Shown here piece after piece: positions 4,340 to 64,000 of a stretch of 64,000 nucleotides of DNA. The stretch spans positions 62,001 through 126,000 of the forward strand of contig NZ_JMFO01000004.1 of assembly GCF_000714715.1 (NCBI RefSeq). Reading direction: 5' to 3'. The translations under genes and the position numbers were made by a program. The stretch's first letter is position 1, and each line of letters begins with the position of its first letter. The stretch is from Candidatus Magnetobacterium casense. Its GTDB lineage: Bacteria; Nitrospirota; Thermodesulfovibrionia; Thermodesulfovibrionales; Magnetobacteriaceae. Below the pieces are notes generated by a model. It saw nothing but the letters and a program-made list of their open reading frames with translations. It made no database searches and had not been told where the DNA came from.

Positions 4340-4765
4340 ACTATATCCTTAACATCACCGCGCTATCCTCAAGACCTCCGCTGCAAGGTGGCCAGTCCAC
4401 TTGCCCCCTCCCTGATGTACTCCTGATGTGTTGTAATGTAATTCAACTCCATATAAAAAATGACCAATATTGCCTGGTCATGCAGCATCTGCTCAGTCTT
4501 TAAGAGATTACAGCCCATTGTCTTTAATCTTTCAATATTAACGCAATTTCCACACTAAAGTCAACCCTTGGTACAGGCCAATCGCATTTGGTTGGAAGAT
4601 AAAAGAATAGGGGGGCCAGCCCCCTTTTATGCCGGGAGTCGCTGACCCCTTGACCCCTTTATATGCATTTTTATTACCACTTGTTATCCACTAAGAATTT
4701 ATGCAACCATTGCCAAATTGTACTTGCTATTTCTATTCGCATTAAGATATAATAAAGGCTTAGAT
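4340..4765. other. Intergenic stretch with AT hairpin and partial repeat
   Basis: There is no gene in this 426-base gap. It holds a small inverted repeat, ATGACCA (4460-4466) and TGGTCAT (4475-4481), which on the minus strand is followed by a T run and could be a weak terminator. Further right lies a partial copy of the GC-rich repeat with CCCCTTGACCCC at 4646-4657. Base composition drops sharply towards AT-rich after about 4650, marking the left edge of the next cassette. Confidence 0.5.
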
Positions 4766-5452
4766 ATGGTTGACACAAGTTCAATAGTTTTATTGGGAAG
4801 TTTTATCCCTATGATCTTTCATCCTGAGTGGTTTGAAAGATACAAGATATTGCCGCTTCAGGATACCCAATGGGCAAAGGGACATTGTCCGGAAATAGTA
4901 GAGCTTAAAGATGGTTCAGGTGCTATTGTAAAGCATCCAGCAATATATGTTACCAACGCAATAACGCAGCTTAACTTTCAATCATTGAGTTTTAAAGTAA
5001 TTAATAATAGTTTCTCTTGTGAAACTAAGGAAAGAGGTTCTTTTGATACTATGAAGGAAGTTGTTATAAAAACTTTCTCTATACTGGAACATACTCCAAT
5101 AGATGCCGTTGGTATAAATTTTGTCGGATCGCTTGAGGTGAAAAAAAAGGCCGATACAGTTTTGAAATCTATATTTATGAAGAATGACTTAGGCAGTATT
5201 TTTGGAGATAACTATAATGTTGGTAGTAACATCATTATAAAAGAAGATACAAGAATAATCAGTTTTAAAGTTGACAGTTCACTGGCTAAAGATTATATGA
5301 TTGATTATCAAATAAATTTTCATTCAAATATTGAAAAGGACGAATCTATTAGTGCAAACAAGGCTGTCGATATTGTAGCAAACAATTACGATTCCAGTTT
5401 AGCGTATACGGTAAGGATACTTCAATCTCTTTTAGGAAAATACATCACATGA
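4766..5452 (+). CDS. Unknown protein, first gene of AT-rich three-gene cassette
   Basis: About 228 aa from the ATG at 4766, chosen because AAAGG lies 7 bases upstream; the open frame extends back to 4718. I do not recognise the family with certainty. Visible traits are a hydrophobic N-terminal segment containing GSFIPMIFHPEWF, a central LEHTPIDAVGINFVGSLEV segment, and an alternating beta-rich pattern without signal peptide or convincing TM helix. The general plan recalls the TIGR04255-like group of uncharacterised proteins, a weak resemblance from memory. It overlaps the next gene by 4 bases (ATGA). Codon use is strongly AT-biased compared with flanking genes, which suggests horizontal acquisition. 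Confidence 0.7.
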   Translation: MVDTSSIVLLGSFIPMIFHPEWFERYKILPLQDTQWAKGHCPEIVELKDGSGAIVKHPAIYVTNAITQLNFQSLSFKVINNSFSCETKERGSFDTMKEVVIKTFSILEHTPIDAVGINFVGSLEVKKKADTVLKSIFMKNDLGSIFGDNYNVGSNIIIKEDTRIISFKVDSSLAKDYMIDYQINFHSNIEKDESISANKAVDIVANNYDSSLAYTVRILQSLLGKYIT

Positions 5453-5973
5453 TGAATACTGAAAGAATAAGAGAGCAATATTACTTTAATGATTTATTAG
5501 TCGATCTTCAACAAAAACATGAGAGAACCACATCTACGGAAGATATAATACATAGACACAATAAAACGGACTCCAACTTTGAAAATAGAGATAGAACACC
5601 ACATTCTTATAACCAAAGTCAAAGGACTAAAAGAGAGAGAGAGACAATAAAATTTTGGTGTATAGGAAAAGTTATAAGGATAAATGAGAAAGACGGGTAT
5701 TTCGAAGCATCTTTAAAAGACATAAAAAACAAAGTGGAACTTATTGCTGAATTCAGTATTGATGCTGCTTTTGATGATGATGACGATAAAAAATTAACGT
5801 TGTATCCTAACGCAACATTTATATATTATATATCTCAAATACATGGGTATGGAAGTCCTAAGATGGAGTTTAAATTTGAGTTTAAGCCTCCATACATCTG
5901 GCAGAAGAATGATGGCAAAAAGGCAGCAGAAAAATATCGAGAGTTATTCCCTGACGATCCTGAAATTAATTAA
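5449..5973 (+). CDS. Unknown protein, second gene of AT-rich three-gene cassette
   Basis: A 174-aa protein of unrecognised family. The N-terminal 65 residues are highly charged and low in hydrophobics, probably disordered. Residues 68-150 look like a compact beta-rich domain (IKFWCIGKVIRI at its start, YYISQIHGYG near its end), followed by a charged tail with a DDDDDKK stretch near 104-110. It starts inside the stop of the upstream gene (ATGA overlap) and ends 3 bases before the metallo-beta-lactamase-fold gene, so it almost certainly works with both neighbours. It has no catalytic motif, and an adaptor or immunity-type role is only a guess. Confidence 0.68.
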   Translation: MMNTERIREQYYFNDLLVDLQQKHERTTSTEDIIHRHNKTDSNFENRDRTPHSYNQSQRTKRERETIKFWCIGKVIRINEKDGYFEASLKDIKNKVELIAEFSIDAAFDDDDDKKLTLYPNATFIYYISQIHGYGSPKMEFKFEFKPPYIWQKNDGKKAAEKYRELFPDDPEIN

Positions 5974-5976
5974 TTC

Positions 5977-7116
5977 ATGCCCAACTTTCCTATAGATTGT
6001 CTTACACCACCCAAAGATAATGAATTGGAGGTTACAGTATTTGGTACGGGGTACGGAGAATCTATCGTAATGCACGTCCCTGGTATTGGCTGGGGAGTAA
6101 TTGACTCCTGCATCATGGAAACTGATAATGGAAGTAAAATAGTCCCTCCTCTTGCCTATCTTACTGAATTACAGACACCACCTGAGAATTTATCTTTCAT
6201 GATACTAACTCATCCTCACGAGGATCATTATATGGGGTTTGACGTTATCTTGAAGCATTATACAGGACATATCTCAAAGGTCTGCCTATATGCAGGTAAG
6301 GGAGTGAGAGAGTTGAAAAAGTATACTGCAAAAAAAACAATTGCAGGAGCTAATATGGATAATCTTGTGAAAGTGTTTAAAGCTGTTGATATTATAAAAA
6401 ATGGTGGGGCAACTTTACGATATTTGAGTGAGATGACAAGTGTTTTTGATAAAAGAAATGTCCTGATTAAAGATTACGGTAGCACGGACATTTCAATGAC
6501 GGCGCTATCACCAAATGCAATCAGTATAGACTTGTATACTGATAAATTGTTTAAGGCAATACCTGAACCAGGCTTACCAGTACATGAGTTAGATGATACT
6601 TTACATAATGTAATATCGGTTGCATTGTTACTAAAAATTGGAGAGTTACAGATAATCTTAGGAAGTGATCTTGAAACCGGAACAGCAGTTCATAAGAATG
6701 GCTGGATTGGTGTTTTATCTAATCGTGATATTCCGTTGTGGGCCAATTTTGTTAAGGTCTCGCATCATGGCTCAAAAAATGGGTTCCATGAATTTGCATG
6801 GGATGAACATTCTTCTAAAAAGAAACCTTATGCGTTCATCTGTCCCTTTTATTACGGTAGTAACAGATTACCTGATGGGGAAGAGGTTGGCACAATAAAT
6901 AAATATTGTGAGAGTTTGGGAATAGTCTCTGCCGTTCAATTTGATGATCAATTGAATAAACATTATAAAAGAGATATCATCCAGGTTTTTAAATCATGTG
7001 TTAGAAATATAAAGGTTCTAAATAAATCTAAGACTCCAGGTCTTCTTAGAATTCGATTTGATCTTTACGGCAATATAACAGAAACCCGTGCTGTAGCGCC
7101 TGCTGTATTGCTTTGA
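5977..7116 (+). CDS. ComEC/Rec2-like metallo-beta-lactamase-fold hydrolase
   Basis: A 379-aa soluble MBL-fold protein. The metal-binding motif HxHxDH is present as HPHEDH near residue 78. A downstream acidic residue lies in ILGSDLETG (near 229), and SHHGSKNGF near 267 supplies the His of the ComEC-type subgroup. The N-terminal segment FGTGYGESIVMH is typical of that subgroup. ComEC-like MBL domains act on nucleic acid or nucleotides, but the TM channel of ComEC is missing here, so this is a free-standing enzyme. It is the third gene of a tightly packed AT-rich operon with two unknown proteins, an arrangement common in anti-phage or conflict cassettes. The substrate is unknown. Confidence 0.85.
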   Translation: MPNFPIDCLTPPKDNELEVTVFGTGYGESIVMHVPGIGWGVIDSCIMETDNGSKIVPPLAYLTELQTPPENLSFMILTHPHEDHYMGFDVILKHYTGHISKVCLYAGKGVRELKKYTAKKTIAGANMDNLVKVFKAVDIIKNGGATLRYLSEMTSVFDKRNVLIKDYGSTDISMTALSPNAISIDLYTDKLFKAIPEPGLPVHELDDTLHNVISVALLLKIGELQIILGSDLETGTAVHKNGWIGVLSNRDIPLWANFVKVSHHGSKNGFHEFAWDEHSSKKKPYAFICPFYYGSNRLPDGEEVGTINKYCESLGIVSAVQFDDQLNKHYKRDIIQVFKSCVRNIKVLNKSKTPGLLRIRFDLYGNITETRAVAPAVLL

Positions 7117-9659: not shown

Positions 9660-10181
9660 CTACTCTTGGAACACATCCTTAATGTCTATCTCCAGCCCCT
9701 CAATGACCTTGGACTTTACTATGCCCTCATCTGTAGCTTCGGAGAATATCTTGTACTTGTCTCCTTCAATGGTGAGTATCTCAATGGTCTGAAAATCCGG
9801 TATGACAATCCAATACTCAGGCACTCTGTAGCGCTCGTATATATCCCTCTTGGTAATAGTATCCTTGCCAATGGTCCCCCTGGAGACTATCTCACACACC
9901 ATATCAGGCACCCCCCTGACCCAATCCTGAAAAATAGACATGTTCTCTTTCCTGATAAACAACAAGTCAGGCTGTAATCTTTGCTCGCCCTCTTTGAGGA
10001 TGACGTCAAGTGGTGCATAGTACACCTTGCCGGATTTATGTATCTTTATGTGCCGGCTTATTATGTCGTTTAAATTCCAGCTAACATCCTGATGCCTGCC
10101 AAACGGACTAGGCCCCATAACTTCCACCCCATTAATTATCTCTGTCAGGTCAATATCTCTGTCTGTTGCCTGTGTTTCCAT
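9660..10181 (-). CDS. Uma2-family (DUF820) PD-(D/E)XK nuclease-like protein
   Basis: A 173-aa protein of the Uma2 family, restriction-endonuclease-fold proteins abundant in cyanobacteria and some environmental phyla. Core motifs are present: LQPDLLFI (the Asp of PD) near 92-99, and the acidic residue of MVCEIVS near 115, followed by KRDIYERYRVPEYWIV, the family hallmark. The natural substrate is not known; many copies are orphan genes. It converges on the queH-queA-spor unit with a 45-base gap and shows no partner gene. Confidence 0.88.
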   Translation of the reverse strand: METQATDRDIDLTEIINGVEVMGPSPFGRHQDVSWNLNDIISRHIKIHKSGKVYYAPLDVILKEGEQRLQPDLLFIRKENMSIFQDWVRGVPDMVCEIVSRGTIGKDTITKRDIYERYRVPEYWIVIPDFQTIEILTIEGDKYKIFSEATDEGIVKSKVIEGLEIDIKDVFQE

Positions 10182-62389: not shown

Positions 62390-63625
62390 ATGGCAGACGA
62401 AAACGTATACATAACCAAGGTAAATATCCGTAAGGTTAGGCATCTAATGGATATTAATATCTCACTTTCGGGTATATCGAGACAACATCTGATCTTCACA
62501 GGTATAAACGGGAGCGGTAAGACTTCGGTCTTGGAGGCAATAAGAGACTATTTAGGTAATGCTGATCAAGATAAATATATTAACTCTATAGCTGGTAAGG
62601 AATTTTTGGACCATAACAAAAGAACCTTCCTGAACAAAAGAACTCATAGAAAAATAGAGACTAGCATATTATTAGAAAAAATCATAAAAAAAACAGGCAT
62701 AGAGTTATATTTTAACCATAGCTACTTATTTTATAGAGCTTCGTACATTAGGGGTGAGCATTTTTTTGCGTTTTTTAACGCCAGGAGAAAAGCGGAATTA
62801 AAACAACCTACAGGTATAAGAAAAATTGAAATTAAACAACAATATGTCTTTAACGATAAAGCAAGTTCTGAATTCATACAACATATCGTAAATTTACAAG
62901 TAGACAGACTTTTTGCTGAAAGAGGAAATGATACAGATACTGTTAAGAACATAAATAACTGGTTCGAAATATTTGAACAAAGGCTCAAAGAGATATTTGA
63001 GGATAATGAAATCAAATTGGAATTTGACATAAAAAATTACGACTATCATATAGTCAAAAGAGACAGAGAGAAATTTACGTTTAATCAACTTTCTGATGGT
63101 TATTCGGCAATCTTCGATATAATGTCAGAAATCATCATGAGGATGGAACCACATAGAACCAAGAGCTACGATATCCAAGGAATTGTCTTGATAGATGAAA
63201 TCGAGACACACTTGCATGTCTCGTTGCAAAAAAAGATTTTGCCGCTTCTGACATCGTTTTTTCCAAATGTTCAATTTATTGTTACAACCCATTCGCCGTT
63301 TGTGTTAAATTCAATTGAAAACGCTGTAATCTGTGACTTGGAAAATAATATCATAGCGAGTGACTTCAGTGGGTATTCCTATAGCAGTATTGTAGAGGAT
63401 TATTTTGATTCTGATAAATATTCTCAGGTTGTTAAAGATAAGATTGAAAGGTATGAACGTTTGGCAGGTCTTGAAATGCTGACAGAAGAAGAAGAAGATA
63501 AACTGTTTAAACTGGAAATGTATCTAAAAGAAATACCTGCATTTTTAGCCCCAGAGTTAAAACTAAAATTCCAACAAGTGCAATTGGTGTTGTTACTTAA
63601 AAACATAAAGAATGGTAAACGTTAA
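62390..63625 (+). CDS. AAA ATPase, PtuA-like (Septu-type defence)
   Basis: A 411-aa ABC/SMC-type ATPase with an AT-rich gene: Walker A GINGSGKTS near 38-46, a charged helical insert (about 90-220), LSDGYSAIFDIMSEI as signature-like segment near 233, Walker B VLIDEIETH near 265 and H-loop VTTHSPFVLNS near 300. This is the layout of PtuA of Septu systems, in which the ATPase senses phage and controls an HNH nuclease. The HNH gene overlaps its 3' end by 14 bases. Septu identity is inferred from the pair. Confidence 0.78.
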   Translation: MADENVYITKVNIRKVRHLMDINISLSGISRQHLIFTGINGSGKTSVLEAIRDYLGNADQDKYINSIAGKEFLDHNKRTFLNKRTHRKIETSILLEKIIKKTGIELYFNHSYLFYRASYIRGEHFFAFFNARRKAELKQPTGIRKIEIKQQYVFNDKASSEFIQHIVNLQVDRLFAERGNDTDTVKNINNWFEIFEQRLKEIFEDNEIKLEFDIKNYDYHIVKRDREKFTFNQLSDGYSAIFDIMSEIIMRMEPHRTKSYDIQGIVLIDEIETHLHVSLQKKILPLLTSFFPNVQFIVTTHSPFVLNSIENAVICDLENNIIASDFSGYSYSSIVEDYFDSDKYSQVVKDKIERYERLAGLEMLTEEEEDKLFKLEMYLKEIPAFLAPELKLKFQQVQLVLLLKNIKNGKR

Positions 63626-64000
63626 AAAATCACAAATAGCGCCAGATTGTCTGGAAATAGAAAAGATAAAACCTAATGGTGATTATAAATGTGGTGAAGT
63701 TATAAAAAAAGTAGCAGAAGAATTCAAAAACAAATGTTACATATGTGAATATAAAGGACCAACTGGAATAAATGTTGAACATTTTATCCCACATGAAGGA
63801 AATAAAGACTTGATGTTTGACTGGAAAAATTTGTTCTATGCTTGTTGGCACTGTAATAACACTAAAACAAACAAATATAAAAATATTTTAAATTGTACTG
63901 ATTCAAAACATGACGTATTAAATTGGATTCAATATGAGATTAAGCCTTACCCTAAGGAAAAACCAAAGATAACGGCATTAAAGAATGAAGATGAAGTCAA
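63612..64000 (+). CDS. HNH nuclease, PtuB-like, cut by window end
   Basis: An open frame from the ATG at 63612 to the last base, at least 129 codons. CYICE near 48-52, VEHFIPHEGN near 61-70, WKNLFYACWHCNN near 79-91 form a Cys-bearing HNH motif (two CxxC zinc knuckles, catalytic His in VEHF, Asn). It overlaps the AAA gene by 14 bases, so the two are translationally coupled. The C-terminus lies outside the window. Confidence 0.78.
   Translation, partial: MVNVKKSQIAPDCLEIEKIKPNGDYKCGEVIKKVAEEFKNKCYICEYKGPTGINVEHFIPHEGNKDLMFDWKNLFYACWHCNNTKTNKYKNILNCTDSKHDVLNWIQYEIKPYPKEKPKITALKNEDEV

Follow-up and report, generated by a model that had tools for sequence, protein, structure and literature searches.

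ComEC-type nucleases and the closest described systems

The metallo-beta-lactamase (MBL) domains of ComEC are metal-dependent nucleases, and ComEC reportedly possesses an asparagine at the position where the motif III histidine is usual (PMC8579336). The nuclease activity of the ComEC MBL domain was reported to be raised by a tethered OB fold, but not by an OB fold supplied in trans (PMC12455585). ComEC-like MBL nucleases furthermore act in the Hachiman, AVAST, Lamassu and DRT anti-phage systems, and in one studied case the MBL was identified as a pro-nuclease which becomes activated by a protease (PMC12799240). A further anti-phage system with an MBL-fold protein, 6A-MBL, is represented by the NCBIfam model NF058524; a literature search on 6A-MBL, on the protein WP_000143147 discussed below and on the family TIGR04255 found no papers.

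The locus described here encodes a free-standing MBL of the ComEC subgroup as the last of three genes (referred to as the trio) and locates to a window of 64,000 nucleotides, by which the whole analysed stretch of DNA is meant. With ComEC/Rec2 the trio shares the MBL subgroup, as documented by the HHGS motif, a DxE-type motif IV and the motif III asparagine, and it likewise encodes a predicted OB-type domain adjacent to the MBL. Unlike ComEC/Rec2, it lacks a transmembrane channel, distributes the OB and MBL parts over separate proteins, carries an HxHxDH instead of an HxDxDH sequence in motif II, has more widely spaced motifs II and III and comprises an additional gene (gene 1), the whole being found in a mobile rather than a competence context. 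The ComEC/Rec2 model TIGR00361 scores gene 3 with 22.6 bits as compared to a cut-off of 190. The trypsin-MBL pairs of Hachiman, AVAST type 1, Lamassu and DRT resemble the trio in having a free-standing ComEC-like MBL, and the LmuA and RTasMBL models match gene 3; however, the trio has neither a helicase, STAND, SMC or RT partner nor a detectable protease, and its MBL gene comes last, with genes 1 and 2 as partners. The similarity to 6A-MBL is limited to the MBL fold, the window MBL reaching 13.2 bits and its E. coli relative 28.4 bits against a cut-off of 220 (NF058524). Finally, the three proteins of the E. coli prophage copy are members of PHROG 36401 (gene 1), 29493 (gene 2) and 28593 (MBL), clusters which are annotated as of unknown function.

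Organization and composition of the locus

The trio consists of three open reading frames on the same strand, preceded by a promoter-like site:

4766..5452, forward strand: gene 1 (g1), 228 aa, open reading frame with a 27-sequence alignment and an AlphaFold2 model; proposed sensor or regulator
5449..5973, forward strand: gene 2 (g2), 174 aa, open reading frame with alignment and model; proposed nucleic-acid or partner binder
5977..7116, forward strand: gene 3, 379 aa, free-standing ComEC-subgroup metallo-beta-lactamase-fold hydrolase, assigned by open reading frame and profile; proposed nuclease effector
4724..4753, forward strand: promoter-like site TTGCTA-18-TATAAT immediately upstream of gene 1; weak and equally frequent in shuffled sequence

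The tight packing noted in the preliminary description is borne out by these coordinates, whereby genes 1 and 2 share a 4-base ATGA overlap and genes 2 and 3 are spaced by 3 bases. The frame of gene 1 runs from the ATG at 4766 to the stop at 5452; the TTG at 4718 lies in the same frame, and the relatives favour 4766. The GC contents of genes 1, 2 and 3 (0.329, 0.318 and 0.370, respectively) lie about two standard deviations under the mean of the 62 window open reading frames of at least 120 aa (mean 0.480, standard deviation 0.067). The trio is flanked by the genes for a scyllo-inosose 3-dehydrogenase and for QueH (queH), and no convincing direct repeats or attachment sites were found around it. 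The AT-richness with respect to the neighbouring genes, claimed before, was confirmed, but the trio is not the sole AT-rich insert of the window: an AAA ATPase and HNH pair at 62390-64000 (forward strand, 29-33% GC), identified as a Septu defence system (PADLOC PtuA 3e-116, PtuB 9e-42), is of similar nature and becomes truncated at the window end.

The encoded proteins

Gene 3 was described earlier as keeping the HPHEDH and SHHGS motifs while lacking a membrane channel, and both statements hold: the motifs locate to residues 79-84 and 262-266, GSDLE is retained as well, and the 379-aa protein matches the ComEC model over the MBL region alone. Among 25 MBL sequences H79, H81, D83, H84, N211, D231, H263 and H264 are invariant, which includes all ligand positions. 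The closest solved structures by profile are ComEC beta-lactamase-like domains (9ic4 with E 6e-11, the second with 1.6e-9), and N211 aligns with the ComEC asparagine stretch. In motif II the protein possesses the canonical HxHxDH, whereas the aligned ComEC domain reads HPDADH. Of the defence models, LmuA (1e-10), RTasMBL (3e-9) and Avs1a (1e-5) match gene 3, and over the MBL proteins scored the PADLOC matches to LmuA and to the DRT-associated MBL (RTasMBL) span 1e-7 to 1e-11. Considering these motifs and profiles, the gene 3 product is proposed to be a metal-dependent nuclease.

For genes 1 and 2 no match with a credible score was obtained in the Pfam, NCBIfam or PADLOC models, in line with their initial description as unrecognised proteins, nor did sequence searches find solved relatives of either. 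The AlphaFold2 model of the gene 2 protein comprises a poorly ordered N-terminal stretch of 60 residues and a confident barrel (64-147), whose strands are arranged as in an OB fold and whose best structural matches are OB, cold-shock and EF-P/eIF5A domains, weak but consistent (best Z 7.7). Gene 2 is thus predicted to carry an OB fold. As the OB fold of ComEC did not stimulate in trans, the idea of a gene 2 OB domain acting in trans on the MBL would need a stable complex of the two proteins.

The gene 1 protein was modelled by AlphaFold2 with a pLDDT of 86.8 as an alpha/beta protein in which a long helix follows each of two strand sets. Its alignment with relatives reveals the conserved blocks GSFxPxIFxPxWF and LEHTPIDAVGINF, the latter being the block which had been suspected to define a family and which proved to be real, with G116 invariant and N118 conserved to 96% among 27 relatives. 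W22, G116, N118 and N184 are the most conserved residues, and by its alignment gene 1 forms a conserved family for which no solved relative was found. Structural searches (Foldseek, VIA) returned McsB, AdoMetDC and TBP as candidate folds (best Z 7.8); these matches lie within the background and were not used for assigning a function.

The three genes as an inherited unit

All three genes occur in the same order in 38 of 39 relative loci, these having been chosen by their MBL, with some near-identical ones stemming from related prophages. Scanning viral contigs with the MBL alignment yielded 40 loci; provided that the MBL was a close relative and the contig extended far enough upstream, the order g1-g2-MBL was always found, the one exception being a divergent locus (L044); wherever upstream DNA could be read, the MBL gene was never alone in the close clade. 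An independent search of 396 genomes of the phylum with the gene 1 profile gave six strong matches, each (6/6) with gene 2 and a neighbouring MBL gene. The question of whether genes 1 and 2 occur mainly apart from the MBL gene, which would have spoken against the trio as a module, is therefore answered in the negative for close relatives, while divergent relatives of gene 1 do occur without an MBL (see below).

The protein distances of the three genes agree among 25 less redundant loci (Mantel r 0.915-0.929, 0 of 5000 permutations), and the dN/dS values between the window and its relative in the Nitrospirae MAG MYbinv3 (L004) amount to 0.24, 0.16 and 0.20 for genes 1, 2 and 3. Compared with its flanks, the trio has a higher AT content in 36 of 37 loci, with a mean difference of 13 points. 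The recurrence of order and adjacency together with dN/dS values of 0.16-0.24 for all three genes shows that the trio is no chance assembly, and the three genes are shown to be inherited as a unit, evolving in step under purifying selection. This selection is also the one property that a housekeeping operon for nucleic-acid processing would share with the trio. The sporadic distribution (6 of 396 genomes of the phylum, 15 of 5426 E. coli genomes), the foreign composition and the mobile contexts make such a role extremely improbable; none of the copies seen lay within a housekeeping operon, and the explanation was rejected on account of the sporadic distribution.

The rapid evolution of the genes has to be considered when searches come back empty. 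A tblastn search of genes 1 and 2 against plasmids gave no match, even though both plasmids found via the MBL carry genes 1 and 2, meaning that single-sequence searches miss such fast-evolving genes. Scanning viral contigs with a single g1-like protein gave no match.

Hosts and mobile contexts

Hosts of the trio are four families of Nitrospirota, plasmids of Adhaeribacter and Pantoea, and lambdoid prophages of E. coli. The MYbinv3 relatives share 71-73% identity per protein with those of the window, and a genome from another family of the phylum (G112) carries the trio as well. In the Pantoea plasmid it is flanked by two tyrosine recombinase genes, and in one genome (G340) it adjoins an Eco57I-type methylase. 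Within 5426 complete E. coli genomes a 99-100% identical copy is present in 14, in all cases adjoining the antiterminator Q gene, and one further genome carries a diverged copy, giving 15 in total. In strain ECOR29 the prophage trio locates to 3762481-3764881 of NZ_CP197071.1. Five annotated E. coli regions locate the trio to the interval between Q and the holin gene of a lambdoid prophage, antisense to the phage genes, and the slot next to Q recurs in the IMG/VR viral contigs L030-L042. The trio is also found on chromosomes and plasmids outside recognisable prophages.

Of the expectation that a defence module would recur in defence islands of unrelated taxa, the spread over unrelated bacteria is borne out, with copies in prophages, plasmids and chromosomes and some in island-like locations. 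The evidence for islands is indirect, as the neighbours are mostly phage genes rather than other defence genes, which was counted against a defence reading. The frequent occurrence in prophages would in turn suit a phage counter-defence set, whose MBL would, in the manner of Apyc1-type MBL enzymes, destroy nucleotide signals used in host immunity, and Apyc1 is indeed among the weak PDB matches of the MBL (E 0.02). The ComEC domains, however, match far better (6e-11), and an Apyc1-like counter-defence MBL was set aside for this reason. Neither the E. coli gene 1 nor its MBL was matched in 50,697 phage records, which, together with the copies outside recognisable prophages and with the pairing of gene 1 relatives with HEPN and PIN proteins, for which no degradation of nucleotide signals is known, makes a counter-defence function quite improbable.

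Annotation records bear on the E. coli copy directly. The RefSeq label of its gene 1 protein (WP_000143147.1) is 'anti-phage protein' in two records and 'hypothetical protein' elsewhere. The former label suggests that the protein was tested or predicted by someone; a literature search found no paper naming it or giving the source of the label. The main texts of the DefensePredictor and E. coli functional-selection papers make no mention of an MBL system.

Divergent relatives of gene 1 and exchangeable third genes

Beyond the close relatives, the gene 1 profile picked up more weakly matching ones in 11 additional genomes, as well as two additional genes in the genome to which the window belongs. 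The alignment of gene 1 with these divergent relatives by hhalign (99.3%, E 1.2e-20, 207 columns) is such that, judged from the profiles, their homology is secure. Several of them head three-gene operons composed of the gene 1 relative, a middle protein of 165-280 aa and a third gene. This third gene encodes a HEPN protein (PF05168) above the Pfam cut-off in L095, L101 and L106, with L102 being similar by alignment, a PIN protein above the Pfam cut-off in L093 and L135, and a small protein without assigned family in L094, L133 and L134, whereas the remaining relatives are solitary or located next to unrelated genes. No profile similarity was detectable between the middle protein of the HEPN operons and gene 2. 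With HEPN and PIN proteins taking the third position, the third gene seems to code for an effector that can be exchanged, and the existence of such operons behind gene 1 relatives that lack an MBL fits a conflict role.

In L140 and L147, TIGR04255 proteins take the position of gene 1 at the head of operons with this layout. These operons resemble the trio by a first gene of about 230-280 aa, a middle gene and a small third gene of nuclease type; they differ from it in that the first gene is without detectable homology to gene 1, no profile or sequence similarity having been detected between gene 1 and TIGR04255, and in that the third gene is HEPN instead of MBL. The first of them (L140, 3755-5405) resides on a prophage contig and comprises a TIGR04255 gene (84 bits, cut-off 30), a middle gene and a HEPN-like gene, while the second (L147, 602-2232) encodes TIGR04255, a middle protein and HEPN, whereby the middle family (5.6e-16) and the HEPN protein (1.7e-37) are common to operons headed by gene 1 relatives. 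TIGR04255 was found in 20 of 148 genomes of the phylum and in none of 14 control genomes. In six further TIGR04255 operons (L149, L150, L153, L156, L157 and L159) the middle gene bears a WDGY...EPDG motif, and HADI-type blocks close the third gene; the gene 1 relatives in L133, L134 and L094 are followed by a third gene that is likewise small and similar, and it is possible that this protein represents a novel effector family.

Considering these operons, the trio may belong, as one branch, to a combinatorial class of three-component immune operons that has no name so far. Within this class the first protein, i.e., gene 1 or TIGR04255 in that slot, and the middle protein would jointly sense infection, whereas the third-gene effector would be exchangeable between a ComEC-like MBL, HEPN, PIN and a small protein without assigned family; in the MBL branch the ComEC OB fold and nuclease would be split over two proteins. 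This class-level reading, in which several effectors combine with one first-gene family, goes further in novelty than the reading of the trio by itself, and we put it forward tentatively, its chances being somewhat short of even.

The nature of the exchanged effectors also bears on a toxin-antitoxin-like addiction module, which would stabilise prophages and plasmids by an MBL toxin restrained by gene 1 and/or gene 2, phage defence being secondary. HEPN and PIN (VapC-like) proteins, with which operons of gene 1 relatives end, are both common toxins, and the gene overlap, the small size and the carriage by plasmids and prophages are what such a module would be expected to show. However, three genes instead of two are present in nearly every copy, the MBL gene of the close clade was not seen alone where upstream DNA was available, and the additional OB component would be left unexplained, so that an addiction module appears unlikely.

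Proposed function

The trio is most probably one horizontally moving operon directed against phages (or other mobile elements), a reading to which we assign a probability of about 0.6. It draws on the recurrence in fixed order, the co-evolution of the three genes, the mobile context, the AT-richness with respect to the flanks, the ComEC-type metal site, the matches to MBL models of known defence systems, the published nuclease activity of ComEC MBL domains, the exchange with HEPN and PIN, and the RefSeq name 'anti-phage protein'. The preliminary description had proposed a defence or conflict module; the placement in prophages, on plasmids and next to a restriction methylase as well as the HEPN and PIN operons support this proposal, with defence as such being inferred. 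According to the suggested mechanism, gene 1 would detect an infection signal or would be freed by one, and hence might serve as sensor, regulator or gate. The OB domain of gene 2 would bring nucleic acid, or the partner, to the MBL hydrolase, with gene 2 holding either the nucleic acid or the MBL. The hydrolase would then degrade invader or cellular DNA (or RNA), whereby infection would be halted. In the 39 trio loci no trypsin-like protease was found by a motif scan (GDSG[GSA]P), and neither gene 1 nor gene 2 matched protease families with a credible score; the missing protease was counted against the anti-phage reading, as were the weak structural matches behind the OB assignment. Activation should therefore differ from that of the protease-activated MBL pro-nuclease.

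As to the substrate, the kinship with ComEC points to DNA, while the HEPN and PIN replacements give a hint of RNA. The same system with an RNA substrate, its MBL resembling RNase Z/J instead of a DNase, would accommodate the RNase-type folds of the exchangeable third genes, the canonical HxHxDH as compared to the HPDADH of the aligned ComEC domain, and the EF-P/eIF5A and cold-shock OB folds among the top matches of gene 2. Both the profile and the motif III residue N211 nevertheless group the MBL with ComEC, a DNase (PMC8579336), and the related HamM nuclease cuts DNA, not RNA (PMC12799240), so that RNA is regarded as a doubtful substrate with a minor, though real, chance of being the correct one.

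If the anti-phage reading is right, the trio would constitute an anti-phage system that is small and easy to clone and whose ComEC-type nuclease does without the protease switch of its known relatives, and gene 1 would be the place to seek the activating signal. The E. coli prophage copies make testing straightforward. The exchange of MBL, HEPN and PIN behind one first-gene family would furthermore render a whole uncharacterised class of operons testable, those headed by TIGR04255 included.

Further observations in the window and in related loci

At 30-760 of the window (forward strand) a small nucleotidyltransferase (GSRAD...GGDIDIMV) is followed, with a 4-base overlap, by a helical protein of 148 aa, a pair that by our own reading of the sequence looks like an MntA-HepT toxin-antitoxin. 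At 9663-10181 (reverse strand) a Uma2-type protein is encoded which corresponds to the PADLOC candidate PDC-S03 (2e-38); in L099, L103 and L107 solitary gene 1 relatives likewise have Uma2-like genes as neighbours, which may be coincidental.

The genome to which the window belongs also harbours the 161-bp relic of another MBL gene, 91% identical, beside an ISL3-like transposase gene, so named from our reading of its sequence (L012, 8475-9783); the homology of this relic stops four bases beyond the stop codon. The MBL copy of MYbinv3 is damaged at its 3' end (L004, 6430-6700), where a 10-bp tandem duplication terminates the frame early and an insertion of about 130 bp with inverted-repeat ends is present.
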